In this document: piece after piece, positions 55,213 to 64,000 of the stretch
Numbering within the stretch: the stretch's first letter is position 1
Layout: each line of letters begins with the position of its first letter
DNA from: Anthracocystis setariae
Lineage: Eukaryota; Basidiomycota; Ustilaginomycetes; Ustilaginales; Ustilaginaceae
NCBI GenBank assembly: GCA_928724745.1
Contig: CAKMXJ010000032.1
Location: forward strand, 434,001-498,000
Length of the DNA stretch: 64,000 nt
Direction of reading: 5' to 3'
Program-made: the position numbers and the translations under genes
The notes under the pieces: generated by a model
The model's database searches: none
Seen by the model: only the letters and a program-made list of their open reading frames with translations
Told to the model about the DNA's origin: nothing

Positions 55213-57120
55213 CTAGCTGACAAGATCAATACGGATCTCACCATACGATTGATCTTGGTTCACCTTGATCCTACCGCCACTTGCCAATGCCAACGTGTGA
55301 TAGAAAGCCTGCGCTGCTACCGCCGGCGTGCTGCTTGCTACCGGTGCCAAATCGCTGAAGAACAAAAAGCTCGGATCCTCGAGCTCGTCTCGGATACTGT
55401 GAGCATATTGGTAAAAATTGCGTGTCTCTTCCTCCATCTCCTGCTCGAAGACTTCACCGGGAGGCGTCGGTGATCGCGGTACCCTTTCCTCAACCGCAGG
55501 GGCCGTGGGCAGTCCAAGTCGGAGCCCCTCCACAGAGCGCGTCTCTGGCGGAGGCATGTAGTATTCCTCCAGCGGAGCTACTGTCGAAGGGCTTGCCGGA
55601 GGCGGAAAGAGAGGTGATTCCGGAGGTCCCAACCGGCGGAGTCCAGTGGGGGTCTCGATGGAAACCTCGCGTGGTCGGATGGGTGTCGTTTCGCGTAGAA
55701 ACGTCGGTGGCTGATCAATCGAGATCGACGGCAACATAGACGATCGTCTTCGATGTTCCATAAAGACGTTCCAGGGCAGAGATTCTCGGGCACCTCGAAG
55801 GGCGGCGGGAAGTTGCGCTTCCGCCTGTGCAGCAGCACGCGCAACACCGACTTCCACCAGATCCTCCTCGTCCAAAGGCGTAGGCGGAGGTGGCACGGGA
55901 GGCCATTCTTCCACAGGCGCCATCCTTGCCTCTTCAGCCATTTGAAGATACCATTGTCTACGAGAAGCCAAGTGCGCAGTGACGGTGGAGCTCCACATTT
56001 CCGACAGGAGCGCGTTCATCGACATGTCTTGCGGAGGGTCGAACATCATTCCTCGCGTGATAGCGTCAGCCGCCCGCCGTTGTCGATCAAGTCGGGAGGC
56101 ATTTCGCTCAGAAGCCATGCGAGTTACGTAGTCGGCTCGGGCGGAACGAAGCTGATCGTCACTGAGCATGGTGACGGGGTCGTCCAGGGGGTGAAGAGGC
56201 AGTGCAGGCGGCGGTGGGCGACGAGCGAGCAGCGAGGGTTCTACCTCTTCTTCGCGAGGACGACGAGCCGGAGTGACGGTGGGAACGCCTTCGATGATCT
56301 CGAGCTGAGCAGCCTCCTCGGCAAGTCGCTCTTCAAGTTCCGGCCATTCTAGCAGAGGGCCGGTGGTAGTAGTTTCGTCGCCAATGTCGCGACTTTGAAT
56401 TTCTTCCAGTGCGCCCGGGATCAATGGTTCCGGACGAGCTGCTTCGATACCTTCCAATCCCAGATCGAGGCCCTCGACATCCTCAATGTCCACTCCATAC
56501 CCCTCACCGAAGATGGGACCAAGTTCTTCCCCCTCCTCATATCCTCTCGGCAAGCCAAGCTCTTCTTCCTCAAAGGCCGCTCTGGGCAGTGTGATCCTGC
56601 GTTCCTCCTCCACAAAGCGAACGGGTGTCGGCGTGCGGAATCCATCCTCCACCCCTTCGAGCCCAACCCTCATCTCCGGTGGCTCGACACTCCATCTACC
56701 GAGCAAACCCGTGCCGATATCGAAATCGAGCGTATAGAACGCCAAATCCAACGGCAACGTAATCGCATCTATGGGCTTGGTGGATACACGCATGTCGACA
56801 TGCTCAGTGGCCTTTCCGCGTGTATCCAGCGTCAACGCGTGCCGTCGGACGTCGCCATGCGTGCTCGCCACATCCTGATACAAGAGCTCCATCTGATGGC
56901 CGTAGAGCTTGACGACGCCATACATGAGCTGGCTGGACAGTCGAAGGGCAAGAGGCTCGGTGGGTGAGCGAAGGTACTCGCATGCAGGTGTGATGCGCAC
57001 GGACAGAATGTCTTTACGAGTCAGCCGACGGACAACGGATCGATCGCCCAACGTAGCCGCAAGCCAGACAATGCCAAGTCCGCTTTTACGACGCGAGAGG
57101 ATGTCGTTGTTGTAGAACAT
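55213..57120 (-). CDS. REC8: Meiotic cohesin kleisin Rec8
   Basis: 635 residues, one exon. The N-terminal kleisin domain begins MFYNNDILSRRKSGLGIVWL, with KDILSVRITPACEYL, EPLALRLSSQLMYGVVKLYG (about 1-95), which binds the Smc3 neck. The middle is long, acidic and Pro/Glu-rich with many Arg-Glu and Ser-Pro pairs, where separase sites (Glu-X-X-Arg) would lie. Candidates include IQSRDIG and nearby Glu-X-X-Arg motifs, not resolved. The C-terminal winged helix (about 570-635) reads FYHTLALASGGRIKVNQDQS then YGEIRIDLVS and binds Smc1. Starting at MFYNND and the short winged helix favour Rec8 over the mitotic Rad21/Scc1, which begins MFYS. It holds sister chromatids together in meiosis. Presence suggests a sexual cycle. 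Confidence 0.85.
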   Translation of the reverse strand: MFYNNDILSRRKSGLGIVWLAATLGDRSVVRRLTRKDILSVRITPACEYLRSPTEPLALRLSSQLMYGVVKLYGHQMELLYQDVASTHGDVRRHALTLDTRGKATEHVDMRVSTKPIDAITLPLDLAFYTLDFDIGTGLLGRWSVEPPEMRVGLEGVEDGFRTPTPVRFVEEERRITLPRAAFEEEELGLPRGYEEGEELGPIFGEGYGVDIEDVEGLDLGLEGIEAARPEPLIPGALEEIQSRDIGDETTTTGPLLEWPELEERLAEEAAQLEIIEGVPTVTPARRPREEEVEPSLLARRPPPPALPLHPLDDPVTMLSDDQLRSARADYVTRMASERNASRLDRQRRAADAITRGMMFDPPQDMSMNALLSEMWSSTVTAHLASRRQWYLQMAEEARMAPVEEWPPVPPPPTPLDEEDLVEVGVARAAAQAEAQLPAALRGARESLPWNVFMEHRRRSSMLPSISIDQPPTFLRETTPIRPREVSIETPTGLRRLGPPESPLFPPPASPSTVAPLEEYYMPPPETRSVEGLRLGLPTAPAVEERVPRSPTPPGEVFEQEMEEETRNFYQYAHSIRDELEDPSFLFFSDLAPVASSTPAVAAQAFYHTLALASGGRIKVNQDQSYGEIRIDLVS

Positions 57121-58841: not shown

Positions 58842-59467
58842 AAAAAAAGAAAAAGAAAAAGAAAAAGCGAGTTGCATCGAAAGGGTCCTCCTGCTCCCGT
58901 GCCGAATCAGTCAACAGCCAAGCATGCAAGCTCACAGCGGTACTGCAGTGCTACTGCATTGCTGCATTGCTGCATGACTGTCGACATATGAGGTTTTACG
59001 AGCGATGGATGGCGCTTTGTTTTGCATCTGCCATTGGCACATTTCAGATGAACCTGAACGCGGCTGTGGCTGGGAACGTCTGGAACGGCACCATTCATCT
59101 TCAGAGTTGTTCGGATGCAGGGGCAACAGCATGCATCCGACTCCGCTGGCTATTCCCCCGCACTATGCGATCTGTGCCGAAGGGCAGAGAGGGATTCCAT
59201 CATCTGGCCATTCAATTACGGCAAAGTGCACCTGCGGGCGGCCAGGCGGCCGAGCGATGACGGCGGCCAACAGAATAGCATATGCCAAGCAGGGATTCGC
59301 ATTTTTGCGGGGTGGGCATTTTGGATTCCGAAGGCAAGCGTCGATTGTCGAGAGTTGTTGGGTGGTGGATGTGCAGTAGTATGCTAGTCTGAGTTGACTG
59401 ATTGACCAGCAGCGAATACAGTATCTAAGCGAGCCATGCTTCCTCCAAGAAGGTCGCTGTCGGTACC
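58309..59467. other. Intergenic between the hypothetical gene and the retrotransposon
   Basis: 1.16 kb with no supportable gene. Contains (GCAA)n/(GAAA)n repeats at 58531-58575, an A29 run at 58811-58839 extending as A/G tract to about 58866, and one TACAGTA at 59417. The last five bases before the candidate LTR, GTACC (59463-59467), would be the left target-site duplication if the LTR boundary is right. Confidence 0.4.
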
Positions 59468-59640
59468 TGTCAGGTGACTACCTGACTACCGCTTAGCTAA
59501 TCAGTCTCACGTGCAGGACAAGTGCATATACGATCACTCGCCTGTATATATATTCTGCTCCGTTCCGGTTTCAGCTCTCTTTAGGAACGTCATCTCAATT
59601 TCACGCTTAAAACCGCATACAATCGTGCGAAAGCGTGACA
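59468..59640 (+). repeat. Candidate 5' LTR (173 bp)
   Basis: Begins TGTCA and ends TGACA, a 5-bp inverted terminal repeat with canonical TG...CA ends. A TATA-like GTATATATATT lies at about 59543. The boundary is set also by the primer-binding site starting two bases after it. A 7-bp inverted repeat (GTCAGGT / ACCTGAC with a GACT spacer, 59469-59486) sits at the outer end. The right LTR is not available to confirm. Confidence 0.6.
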
Positions 59641-59641
59641 T

Positions 59642-59653
59642 TGGTAGCTTCTG
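59642..59653 (+). other. Candidate primer-binding site, initiator-Met tRNA type
   Basis: TGGTAGCT directly after the LTR is complementary to a tRNA ending AGCTACCA, as initiator-Met tRNAs of many fungi and plants do. The match weakens after eight bases. Initiator Met is the primer of Ty3 and many relatives. Confidence 0.55.
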
Positions 59654-59854
59654 TGACTTCTCCGACAATCCTTACATTTTTCACATCCACACCTTACCGT
59701 AGTCACCATTTCGCATTCACCACCTTGGGTACTACGTGCCCGTCGCCATCAACAACCTCTCTATCCGTTTATTGACGACATCGACAAGCTCCTCCGTCGT
59801 TCGTCCGTCTCTGTTTCATCATCTGACAACTCCGCAACCCCCGCAACATCGATA

Positions 59855-60976
59855 ATGCCCGACCCGTCGCCTGTTTCGCCCACCCGTTCCTCGACCTCTT
59901 CCGCGGTCACTGAACAGCCATCCTTCCACACCTCCAACCTCGAGCGGAAACTCGATCGTATGATGGCTCTTATGGAATCCTTCCTCTCCGCCCAGCAAGG
60001 AGGAACTCCTATCGTACCTGCCGCGATGACCACCGCTCCCGGTCCCGGTTCCAACGCCGCCTCTTCCGATTCCGAAGACTCCTTTGTCGGCGTAATTGAT
60101 AAAAAGCATGTTCTGAAGCCCAAGGACATTGCTACTTTCAACCCGGAAAATGGCGACGACGTCGAAACTTTCTGCCGCCGTATTGACGAAGCTGTCGACA
60201 CCTACGGTACTAAATCGGTCTGTCAGGTCCTACCCAAGTGCTTGGAAGGTACAGCCGTCGACTGGCATACCAACCTCGGCCACCTGGAGCGCGCCGCGCT
60301 TAAGCGCAGCCCTAGCATCTGGATTCGACTCCTCCGCGAACGTTTCGGCATGAGTGAGGCTGATGCACTCCAGGAACTTCTGGACATCAAATACGATATC
60401 GCCGTGGACTACAACACATACCATGAACGTGTCATGCGTCTAGCTCGCCTCGCCAATCAGAACTCGCCTACCCAGCTGGTTCATTGGCTTCTCCACGGCC
60501 TGCCTTATCGCATGAAGGAACAACTCACCGCGGATGCCGTTAGCGCCAAAGTAGATCCTAATACTTTCCGGCAGATGTGCATCGCTCAACGAAAGCTATA
60601 CCTTAAGCATGGTACGCGCCTTAACGCTCAGTCTGACTCCCGCTCCCGCGGTCAGACTACTCCATCTCGTCGCGATCAGCCGAATCCAGCTAACCCTGTC
60701 AAACCTTCCGACAAGCAGGTCGTTCGTGCTCCCTTGCGTCCTTGTCGCCACTGTCAAGGCTCTCACTGGGATGCCGAATGCCCTAAGCGTCCAGGACTTC
60801 CCACCACCCGCGCCGTTGTCGCCGCCCATCATGTCGATAACGAAGCTGACTCTGCCTACGACAATGCTCAGTACGCAGCACTCCAAGCTGCTTACTTCGC
60901 AGTGTCCGACGTCAGTTCTCCCGAATCGTCTTCCTCTTCGAACGCAGACTCTGACATCGCGATGCATGTCGCCTAG
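59855..60976 (+). CDS. gag: Gag (capsid and zinc knuckle)
   Basis: 373 residues ending at TAG 60974-60976. The N-terminus is Ser/Thr/Pro-rich with a helix (LERKLDRMMALMESFLSAQQ). The capsid-like retrotransposon gag domain covers about 95-255 (FNPENGDDVETFCRRIDEAV, LEGTAVDWHTNLG, FGMSEADALQELLDIKYDIA). A nucleocapsid zinc knuckle CRHCQGSHWDAEC follows: its spacing is Cys-X2-Cys-X3-His-X4-Cys, one residue shorter between the second Cys and His than the retroviral standard. Gag assembles the virus-like particle and packages the RNA. The same reading frame continues without a break as pol beyond the stop. Confidence 0.88.
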   Translation: MPDPSPVSPTRSSTSSAVTEQPSFHTSNLERKLDRMMALMESFLSAQQGGTPIVPAAMTTAPGPGSNAASSDSEDSFVGVIDKKHVLKPKDIATFNPENGDDVETFCRRIDEAVDTYGTKSVCQVLPKCLEGTAVDWHTNLGHLERAALKRSPSIWIRLLRERFGMSEADALQELLDIKYDIAVDYNTYHERVMRLARLANQNSPTQLVHWLLHGLPYRMKEQLTADAVSAKVDPNTFRQMCIAQRKLYLKHGTRLNAQSDSRSRGQTTPSRRDQPNPANPVKPSDKQVVRAPLRPCRHCQGSHWDAECPKRPGLPTTRAVVAAHHVDNEADSAYDNAQYAALQAAYFAVSDVSSPESSSSSNADSDIAMHVA

Positions 60977-61011
60977 GAACACGCGGGGAGCTCATCTTCT
61001 CAGAGCTCCCC
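60974..61011 (+). promoter_or_regulatory. Putative stop-codon readthrough signal: TAG, 8-base spacer, 9-bp hairpin
   Basis: The gag stop TAG (60974-60976) is followed by eight bases, then GGGGAGCTC (60985-60993), a 9-base loop (60994-61002) and GAGCTCCCC (61003-61011). The arms are perfectly complementary and 7 of 9 pairs are G-C. Gag and pol share one frame, so suppression of this TAG would directly make Gag-Pol. The base after TAG is G, as in gammaretroviral readthrough sites, whose structure also begins eight bases after the stop. Confidence 0.65.
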
Positions 61012-64000
61012 ACCTCAGAAACCTCCCGACCAACTCTCGTCCCTACCCTCTTCTACGCTGCCAATCATCGATGCACACGAGCCCTTGAACCCGACATTCC
61101 ATCTCGTTCCCACCTATCTCCGCCTCTCCGTCCAACCTTCTCGCGGTCCCACCATTGAAGCCTGCCTCGATACCGGCGCCTCTTGTTCTCTCATCGCTCA
61201 ACCTCTCTTAGCTTCATTCGACCACACACTCCACCCAACCACTACTACCATCCGTACGGCCAGTACACCGACCACTTCCCTTGGCACAGCGACGTTTTCC
61301 CTCTGCATTCCTTGTCCACCTCACGCAATCGCTCGAACCACAGTATCCTGTCACGTTCTCAGCACGCTACCACCTGGTCTGATCCTCGGCATGGACTTCT
61401 TCATCGCCCATGGCCTCCTGTTCGACTCGGTGAAATCTATGATCTCTCTACAATCGTGTGGTTTGCGCGCTACCGTCGGTACTGTACGCCAGGCCAATCA
61501 TAACCCTATCGCGGCCCTCGCTACAGCACCTCCGGCTAAATCGCATCTTCCACAGAATCCGATCCTCGCCCCAGATATGCGGGCTCCTCCGGACATGGAA
61601 GGGTATACGCTGCCATTCACCGTACAGCCTGATCAACTCGACTCCGGCGACTCCCCCATTTTTGACTCCGACTGCGAGCCCGCTCTCCGTACTGCCTTTC
61701 TCACTCTTCTTGATGACTATCCCGACGTTTGGCGTCCTGGCCTTGGCTTGCTCAAGACTGGTGACGCCATGCGCCTTCCGTCTAAGGTTCTTGACCGGAA
61801 CCCTCACCAGTTCAAACCGCGCCTCTATCGTGTTTCTCCTCGTGATCGGCGCGCAATTGACGAAGTTTTCGATGCTCTCACTAAACAAGGTCGGTTGTCC
61901 AAGGCCCCCGCCGGTACCCTGTGTGGCTGGCCAGTGTTTGTGGTGTATCGCAATGGTAAGCCTCGCCCTGTCGTGGATCTACGCCAGCTTAACCAGGTGG
62001 TTGATCCCGATCATTATCCTCTACCTAACCCCGATGATCTCCGCGAACGTTTGGCCGGCGCCAAGTTCATTACAACGTTCGACCTACGAAAGGCCTTCTA
62101 CCAGATGCCCCTACATCCTGATGATCGCTGGAAAGCCACGGTCCTAACTCACCGCGGCCAGGAGACACTTTCCTGCACGATCATGGGCCAATCCCGTTCC
62201 GTCGCCTTCCTCCAGAGAACGTTGACGGAAGCCTTCGGAGCTGCTGGACTTGCCGACAAAACCTTTGTCTACGTTGACGATTTCGGCGTGCGTTCCGCTA
62301 CAGCCGACGCTCACCTGCAAGACGTCCGCGCTGTGATGAACGTTATTCGCCACCTCGGCCTTACTCTCGCCCGCGACAAGGCGCACGTCGCACGGGCCGA
62401 AGTTCCCCTCCTTGGTCATCTCGTCTCCGGTCGTGGAACTCGACTTCACCCTGATAAGTGCACGGCTATCCAGAATATCCAATACCCGACTACGCTCAAC
62501 CAGTTGGAATACATCGTTGGATTCTTCTCTTACTACAAAACATACGTTTCGCGATTCGCAGCCCTGATCCAGCCCCTTCAACGCCTCAAGACTCTGCTTC
62601 TCAAAGGTGCTCCGCCCGGAGGCCACGCCAGGAAAAAGCATTGCTCTACCACCGCCGTTCCTGAAGACCCCGCCGCCCAACAAGCCTTGCACGAGCTGAA
62701 GGCCATCCTCCAGGATCGAGTTCTCCACTTCCCCGATTACTCCAAACCCTTCCTCGTGTACGTCGACGCCTCGCAGCAACACGGCTTCGCTCTTGCCTTA
62801 CATCAGAACCGCCCGACATCCTCGTCAATCTCCCCTGCCGAAGTCCCCATTTGGTTCGACTCCCGCGCCCTGCAGCCCGCCGAACGCACATATTGGCCAA
62901 CTGAGCTCGAAGCCGCGGCTGCGGTCTGGGCCCTTCAGCGAACCAAACGCTTCCTCGACGCCTCACCAGGTCCTCACATCCTATTCACAGATCACCTCGC
63001 TGTCACCAGCATAGCCGACGCAAAGCCTTTCTCTGTAACACCTGCATCCCGAAACCCTCGCCTTATCCGTTTCGCACTCCTCTTGGCAGAGTTCCGGCCC
63101 AAGCTGCAGTTTATGCACCGCAAAGGCATGTACATGACACATGTCGACGCCTTAAGCCGCATCCAGGCAGCGGACGCCTCTTCCCTCACCGCCACAGCTC
63201 ATCATGTTTCCATCAGTCCCGCCCTCCAGGAATCCATTGCATCCAGCCAGCGTTCTGACTCACCTATGGCTCGTATCGCTAAAGACCTCGTAGCTAAAGC
63301 CGCTGGTCAACGCCCCTTCTTACACAACGGATGGGGTCTAGACGCCGCAGGTCTCCTCCACAAAGTCGATGAAGACGGCAAGTGGCGCATTTGCATTGGA
63401 CCAACAGCCCTTCCGCAAGTCATCGCCCTTGCTCACACTGGCCACCTCGGAGTCAGCGCCACCTTTGATCGGTTTCGCCAAGTGGCTTATGCGCCTCATC
63501 TGCTTCGCCACGTCAAAACCTTCGTTCGCCGCTGCACTCGTTGTCAGCAAACAGCGACACTGCGCCATCGTCCCTACGGCTCCTTGCAACCACTTCCAAG
63601 TCCGCACGCTCCCTTTCTCACACTGTCATGCGATTTCATCGTCCGGCTACCTCCAGTCCGTTCCCACTTCGACCGCGACCTCCTTGATACGATCTTAGTT
63701 ATTACCGACACTGCAACCCGCCGAATCTACCTGCTCTCCGGCGCTACCACGTGGACGGCAGAACAATGGAGCTTCCGCTTCGCAGAACGCCTCCTACCTC
63801 ATGTCGGCTACCCAACTCGACTCATTAGCGATCGCGACTCACGATTAACCTCGGCCTTTTGGAAGTCTCTTAACGCTCGCTACGGCTGCGAATTAGTTCA
63901 CTCCGCTGCTCACCACAAGAGCGACGGGCAAAGTGAACGCGCTATTCAATCGGTCGAAATGGCCCTACGTGGTCTATGCAATGCTTGGTCAGATGACTGG
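60977..64000 (+). CDS. pol: Pol polyprotein (protease, RT, RNase H, integrase), right end missing
   Basis: Open in the gag frame from the codon after TAG to the window edge, 1,008 codons; there is no Met near its start. The protease has Leu-Asp-Thr-Gly-Ala-Ser (DTGAS at 61169-61183) and later GLILGMDFF. Reverse transcriptase: KPRPVVDLRQLNQVV, FITTFDLRKAFYQMPLHPDD, and the catalytic YVDD at 62270-62281. RNase H: FLVYVDASQQHGFALAL, ELEAAAAVWAL, LFTDHLAV. Integrase zinc region: HTGHLG (63434) with CTRC (63533). The integrase core has its Asp in LSCDFIV, its second Asp in SDRDS and its Glu in DGQSERA. Only 34 residues lie between the last two, one fewer than the usual 35. All catalytic residues are present, so the proteins are probably functional. 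It is presumably made only as Gag-Pol by readthrough. Confidence 0.9.

Follow-up and report, generated by a model that had tools for sequence, protein, structure and literature searches.

The 64,000-nucleotide stretch of Anthracocystis setariae DNA analysed here (contig CAKMXJ010000032.1, positions 434,001 to 498,000; hereafter the window) carries a Ty3/gypsy long terminal repeat (LTR) retrotransposon whose gag and pol open reading frames (ORFs) are separated by a single TAG. Judging from the sequences of the element and its family, this gag-pol junction is very probably a programmed UAG readthrough site at which a Gag-Pol fusion is made, with the help of a simple stem-loop and of a linear sequence motif that does not vary. 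The gag ORF (59855..60973 on the + strand, or to 60976 through the stop) comprises 373 codons from the ATG at 59855 and ends at the TAG (60974..60976), the proposed readthrough site. The pol ORF follows in frame 0, i.e., in the same frame as gag, and is open from 60977 to the end of the window (60977..64000, + strand, 1008 codons) and beyond it, up to a TAA at positions 498679-498681 of the contig (C28). Downstream of the stop, an 8-nt spacer (60977..60984) leads into a perfect 9-bp stem formed by a 5' arm (60985..60993) and a 3' arm (61003..61011), which enclose a variable 9-nt loop (60994..61002), all on the + strand. The shared frame with its one intervening TAG and the perfect stem eight bases further on had both been pointed out in the initial annotation, and both hold to the base.

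The genome holding the window (21,467,743 bases in 36 contigs) contains at least 34 matches to the Gag query and at least 27 to the protease-reverse transcriptase (RT) piece, both counts being lower bounds. Twenty-five of the 34 Gag matches, some of them split, belong to 23 elements, and the other nine, at 22-35% identity, are not counted as family; the 27 pol matches correspond to the same 23 elements plus four downstream pieces apparently cut off by nested insertions, as inferred from their coordinates. All 23 family elements reach the gag-pol junction, with Gag identities to the window copy of 40-77%. The check for a sense codon at the TAG site in other copies, proposed in the initial annotation, gives a uniform answer: TAG occupies the site in 23 of 23 elements, and a sense codon, TAA and TGA are each found in none. 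Likewise, the G directly after the stop (+4), the 8-nt spacer, the gapless stem register and a frame-0 pol are present in every element, and 12 of the 27 pol matches lie within an open frame of at least 1218 codons. Frameshifting at this junction is rejected on the same count, i.e., pol being in frame 0 in 23/23. In five copies (two on contig C2 and one each on C4, C7 and C15) the gag and pol matches lie about 8-16 kb apart, which suggests nested insertions of other elements. As a pattern, TAGGRNNNCGNGGRGR is not enriched in the genome: it occurs 31 times, and its backwards control 45 times. Of the 31 hits, 23 are the family junctions and eight coincide with none of the listed matches to gag or pol.

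An explanation in which the TAG arose as an inactivating mutation in this copy only, and the hairpin is due to chance, has practically negligible probability. Stops do break many fungal elements according to a survey of such elements, which in its available text mentions stop codons solely as signs of decay and in which the terms 'readthrough' and 'frameshift' have no occurrence in that text (PMC3248453). Within the present genome, this explanation is already refuted by the lack of any sense codon among the 23 elements, by a stem that covaries, and by a young window copy that is otherwise open. Folding of the window copy points to a local signal. The 60 nt after the stop reach -18.9 kcal/mol (z -3.44), and none of 200 shuffles is as good; the signal is confined to this vicinity, because the 161 nt around the stop are unremarkable (z -1.10, 29 of 200 shuffles as good). 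Perfect 9-bp stems with a loop of 3-12 nt are found 3-15 nt downstream of two of the 799 TAG triplets on both strands of the window, and chance is decisively ruled against because TAG, the +4 G and the gapless register recur in all 23 elements. Across the family, the 45 nt following the TAG have a mean folding z of -2.48, with 17 of the 23 elements at -2 or lower, compared with means between -0.38 and +0.28 at 11 control offsets, and in each element 6-9 of the nine registered pairs form.

The junction, including the 8-nt spacer and the 9+9+9 stem-loop, aligns without gaps across all 23 elements, and changes in the stem arms are largely compensated, answering the second check that the initial annotation had proposed for other copies. 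Using 22 distinct rows for the pair counts, standard pairs occupy 86.9% of cells over the nine pairs, against 74.5% in shuffled alignments; cells changed on both sides number 35 against 11.5, and the covariation score is 0.452 against 0.215, values that none of the 500 shuffles reaches for any of the three measures. Sliding the partner arm by 1-3 columns lowers every pairing measure. RNAalifold recovers the same stem with seven pairs, four of which are changed on both sides, and at pair 26-48, 14 of the 22 distinct rows have G-C, seven A-U and one G-U. When the changes are placed on the RT tree, the seven outer pairs have undergone five both-sided and nine one-sided changes that keep pairing, versus five by which pairing is lost. 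In the same alignment, not one of 1263 control helices matches the both-sided changes of the stem with as few breaks; one has a higher fraction of pairing-keeping changes (0.79 versus 0.74) and is, by its coordinates, the same stem extended outward by one pair.

Selection on the codons downstream of the TAG separates two adjacent segments. In this analysis, which covers 20 of the 23 elements in three groups (L011 and L021, near-duplicates of L009 and L020, and the groupless L016 being left out), the 12 codons that span the hairpin show a proportion of synonymous differences (pS) of 0.26-0.35, compared with 0.59-0.79 elsewhere, together with a ratio of nonsynonymous to synonymous proportions (pN/pS) of 0.85-1.04. 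Codons 13-38, which precede the protease, contain no frame-0 stops and have a ratio of nonsynonymous to synonymous substitution rates (dN/dS) of 0.12-0.15. The hairpin codons are under selection as RNA with relaxed amino-acid constraint, and codons 13-38 are under selection as protein in frame 0. Translation through the stop would be expected to leave this pattern, an RNA-level hairpin followed by a protein-level segment in frame 0. Outside the hairpin, synonymous sites are close to saturation (pS 0.59-0.79), and the TAG is kept regardless. Codon choice within the hairpin region is similarly restricted. With L021, a junction duplicate of L020, left out of this count as well as of the all-pairs scan and the loop-downstream test below, glycine at codon 4 is encoded by GGG in 15 of 15 cases, versus 57 of 492 glycine codons further on (22/23 elements), alanine at codon 3 by GCG in 19 of 19, and proline at codon 12 by CCA or CCG in 21 of 21 (22 elements).

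These codon data also bear on whether Pol could be made by internal initiation or by reinitiation after Gag, i.e., without a fusion. A stop does separate the two ORFs, as such a route would have it. However, 19 of the 23 elements lack a frame-0 AUG in the stretch from the TAG to the protease motif, the four exceptions having it at codons 41, 21, 6 and 5, and the codons that precede the protease are under protein-level selection. An internal AUG start of Pol is rejected on the absence of AUG in those 19 elements, and the explanation as a whole is exceedingly unlikely.

The conserved signal is broader than the hairpin, which the initial annotation had taken as the only element between the two genes. 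In all 23 elements, a GNY codon precedes the stop, the UAG is followed by GRW, and positions 6-7 after the stop are C-G; at the eighth base, 20 of the 23 have C. Codon 2 after the stop takes nine forms encoding nine residues, and its third base is always C. This motif, GNY-TAG-GRW-NNCG (60971..60984 in the window, + strand, the last base being the mostly conserved C), is explained neither by protein constraint nor by the stem. The linear context GNY-UAG-GRW-NNCG may itself contribute to weak termination.

The same sequence context resembles a 3' splice site of the form YAG|G; splicing could in principle bypass the TAG and yield an mRNA that encodes the fusion. A pyrimidine-ending codon before the TAG and a G after it are indeed found in 23/23, and the window copy has CTGAC 20 nt upstream of the TAG and GTACGC sites further up. 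A CTNAY branch-like site is, however, absent within 60 nt in 10 of the 23 elements and GTRNGY is absent within the 450 nt looked at in 16 of 23, both signals occurring together in only six (for L040 the scan was partial, its upstream part being interrupted). Splicing over the TAG would also have no need for a covarying hairpin at a fixed distance, and the last 30 codons of Gag are conserved as protein (dN/dS 0.12-0.27). The inconsistency of branch point and donor across elements leads us to reject this route, which we regard as highly unlikely. A-to-I editing of mRNA has been reported in some filamentous fungi, and Pol translated from an mRNA in which UAG is edited to UGG would account both for a stop that is always UAG, which a single A-to-I change converts to a tryptophan codon, and for the RNA structure nearby. 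Known fungal A-to-I editing sites sit in loops, whereas here the target A precedes the hairpin by 10 nt and is not part of it, and the fixed 8-nt spacing looks like that of ribosomal recoding signals; editing is very unlikely for these reasons.

Several observations weigh against programmed readthrough stimulated by the stem-loop, or reduce what can be built on single measures. All copies come from one genome, and the conservation is seen within that genome only. The folding z is weaker than -2 in six of the 23 elements, and single control segments reach -3.7. In L010 the registered stem is weakened to six of nine pairs, with a z of +0.22 over 45 nt. Six of the nine pairs are changed on both sides, a count that 31 of 500 shuffles also reach (their mean being 4.4) and that is a weak measure on its own. 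Conservation does not extend to the two innermost pairs, which are unpaired in 12 and 9 of the 22 distinct rows, and when all nine pairs are counted on the tree, the 19 breaking changes equal the keeping ones (7 + 12). The all-pairs scan also ranks column pairs outside the stem high, which is what clade structure would give, and 10 of the 20 inner branches of the RT tree are firmly supported. As to L010, another stem is possible within its positions 2578-2640, involving a downstream C-run, with -25.4 kcal/mol and a z of -2.89 over 60 nt and a z of -1.97 over 75 nt; this may be a re-paired signal or may be due to chance.

As a plausible mechanism, most ribosomes would terminate at the UAG and release Gag, while in a minority a near-cognate tRNA would insert an amino acid at the UAG, giving the in-frame Gag-Pol fusion as a minor product. 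The compact stem-loop, 8 nt past the UAG, would lie near the mRNA entry of the ribosome when the UAG is in the A site, and together with the linear context GNY-UAG-GRW-NNCG it would lower the efficiency of termination. Family-wide conservation, selection at the RNA and protein levels and the frame-0 pol are direct observations; that ribosomes read through at all, how often they do so, which residue they insert and how hairpin and motif act on them are what we infer from these.

Murine leukaemia virus and some other retroviruses use readthrough of a same-frame UAG with a stimulatory pseudoknot, as described in the available sections of PMC5009743. Following that description, the gammaretroviral gag-pol arrangement is like that of the present family in its same-frame pol, its UAG and an RNA structure 3' of the stop, and differs in its stimulator, a pseudoknot there (PMC5009743) and a simple stem-loop here. 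Complementarity between the hairpin loop and the 45 nt downstream, measured in 22 of the 23 elements, is 10.73, compared with 10.55 when loops are swapped between elements, and 101 of 300 swap sets are as high. The loop thus has no conserved complement downstream within this stretch, and a pseudoknot of the loop with downstream sequence is rejected, there being no signal over swapped loops. In the gammaretroviral signal, too, the stop is followed by G and the spacer is 8 nt long. The initial annotation had likened the junction to this signal, and the likeness stands for the UAG, the G, the 8-nt distance and the frame-0 pol, each in 23/23, and finds no support with respect to the pseudoknot. 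Host and element family differ between gammaretroviruses and the family described here, and a putative independent origin relative to the gammaretroviral device is likely.

Among fungal elements, Tca2/pCal of Candida albicans, a Ty1/copia element, reportedly has its gag and pol separated by an in-frame stop that is overcome by stop-codon suppression, and its stop codon is said to differ from the UAG found here. Given this precedent, stop suppression in a fungal LTR element would as such not be new; Tca2/pCal is a member of the copia superfamily, and the present family belongs to gypsy. Sireviruses are Ty1/copia elements as well. LTR retrotransposons are described in the available text of PMC5009743 as having pol in the -1 or +1 frame, and Ty3 of S. 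cerevisiae, of the same superfamily as the elements analysed here, uses +1 frameshifting (PMC5009743), unlike this family with its pol in frame 0. The same source, again as far as its available text goes, states that the gag-pol region of plant sireviruses contains a conserved stem whose nucleotides covary, that their pol is in the +1 frame and that one subset has a UAG in the pol frame soon after the gag terminator; it leaves the mechanism open (PMC5009743). Sireviruses and the present family are alike in their covariant gag-pol stem and unlike in the frame of pol.

In the same genome, three elements of other lineages were sampled from 150 RVT_1 matches. All three (L059, L060 and L061), which appear Ty3/gypsy-like as read from their ORFs, have a pol ORF that lies in the -1 frame and an in-phase slippery heptamer (GGGAAAC, GGGAAAT and TTTAAAC, respectively) that starts 25, 13 and 7 nt upstream of the gag stop (slippery-heptamer regions: L059 1493-1520, L060 1421-1436, L061 831-840). 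In L061 the heptamer directly adjoins the gag stop TAG. In L059 coupled reinitiation is a second possible route to Pol, because the gag stop TGA overlaps a pol-frame ATG (ATGA, 1517-1520).

Considering the family together with these neighbours, we lean, with some reserve, towards the view that a fungal Ty3/gypsy lineage has independently evolved a gammaretrovirus-like readthrough of distinct design, which would combine a pseudoknot-free covarying stem-loop at 8 nt with the GNY-UAG-GRW-NNCG motif, the latter perhaps acting alone in the ribosomal mRNA channel. The mode of recoding would then have switched within the superfamily, since elements of other lineages in this genome carry -1 frameshift signals. 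In retroelements, the ratio of Gag to Gag-Pol depends on few recoding tricks, and structure-stimulated UAG readthrough is best known from one branch of animal retroviruses. If the proposed readthrough is real, a fungal Ty3/gypsy case backed by covariation, beside elements with -1 frameshift signals, would mean that the same solution has arisen again, here with a minimal stem-loop as its signal, and the 23 natural variants with their differing stems would offer material for mapping what the ribosome needs to ignore a stop. No external relative was confirmed among viral contigs (pol piece and alignment A4, which holds 11 of the 23 elements) or genome contigs (A4), despite pattern matches, and this is not evidence of rarity, because the collections scanned (viral and prokaryote) are not fungal genomes.

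The element begins inside the window and runs past its 3' end. Its 5' LTR (59468..59640, + strand) is 173 bp long with TG...CA ends and is identical in 173 of 173 bases to the 3' LTR, which lies 3' of pol at C28:498835-499007. The 5' copy of the target-site duplication, GTACC, occupies 59463..59467 (+ strand), and the same five bases follow the 3' LTR at C28:499008. With identical LTRs and GTACC on both sides, the window copy is a young, recent insertion. Pol contains, in order and over the Pfam cut-off, RVT_1 (327-481), RT_RNaseH (587-706) and Integrase_H2C2 (813-859), with gag-asp_proteas below the cut-off (20.8 versus 28.2 bits); the protease motif is DTGA or DTGS in 22 of the 23 elements and NTGS in one. 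Among solved structures, the top match of pol is Ty3 Gag-Pol (7q5b, E 1.4e-53). By its domain order, its RT match to Ty3 and its LTR and target-site features (TG...CA ends and 5-bp duplication, examined in the window copy, one of the 23), the element is a Ty3/gypsy (Metaviridae) LTR retrotransposon. Gag has no Pfam match at E 0.001, and in NCBIfam neither Gag (0.1) nor pol has a match. A search of 59400-64000 against Rfam returned nothing at the junction and one sub-threshold snoRNA match elsewhere in pol. Gag carries a zinc-knuckle-like motif, CX2CX3HX4C (60743..60781, + strand), read by eye from the translation, whose spacing apparently departs from the usual CX2CX4HX4C. Upstream of the element, a Rad21/Rec8-like cohesin gene with Pfam matches at both ends lies on the minus strand (55213-57120); since this gene terminates in TAG, UAG seems to be an ordinary stop in the host.

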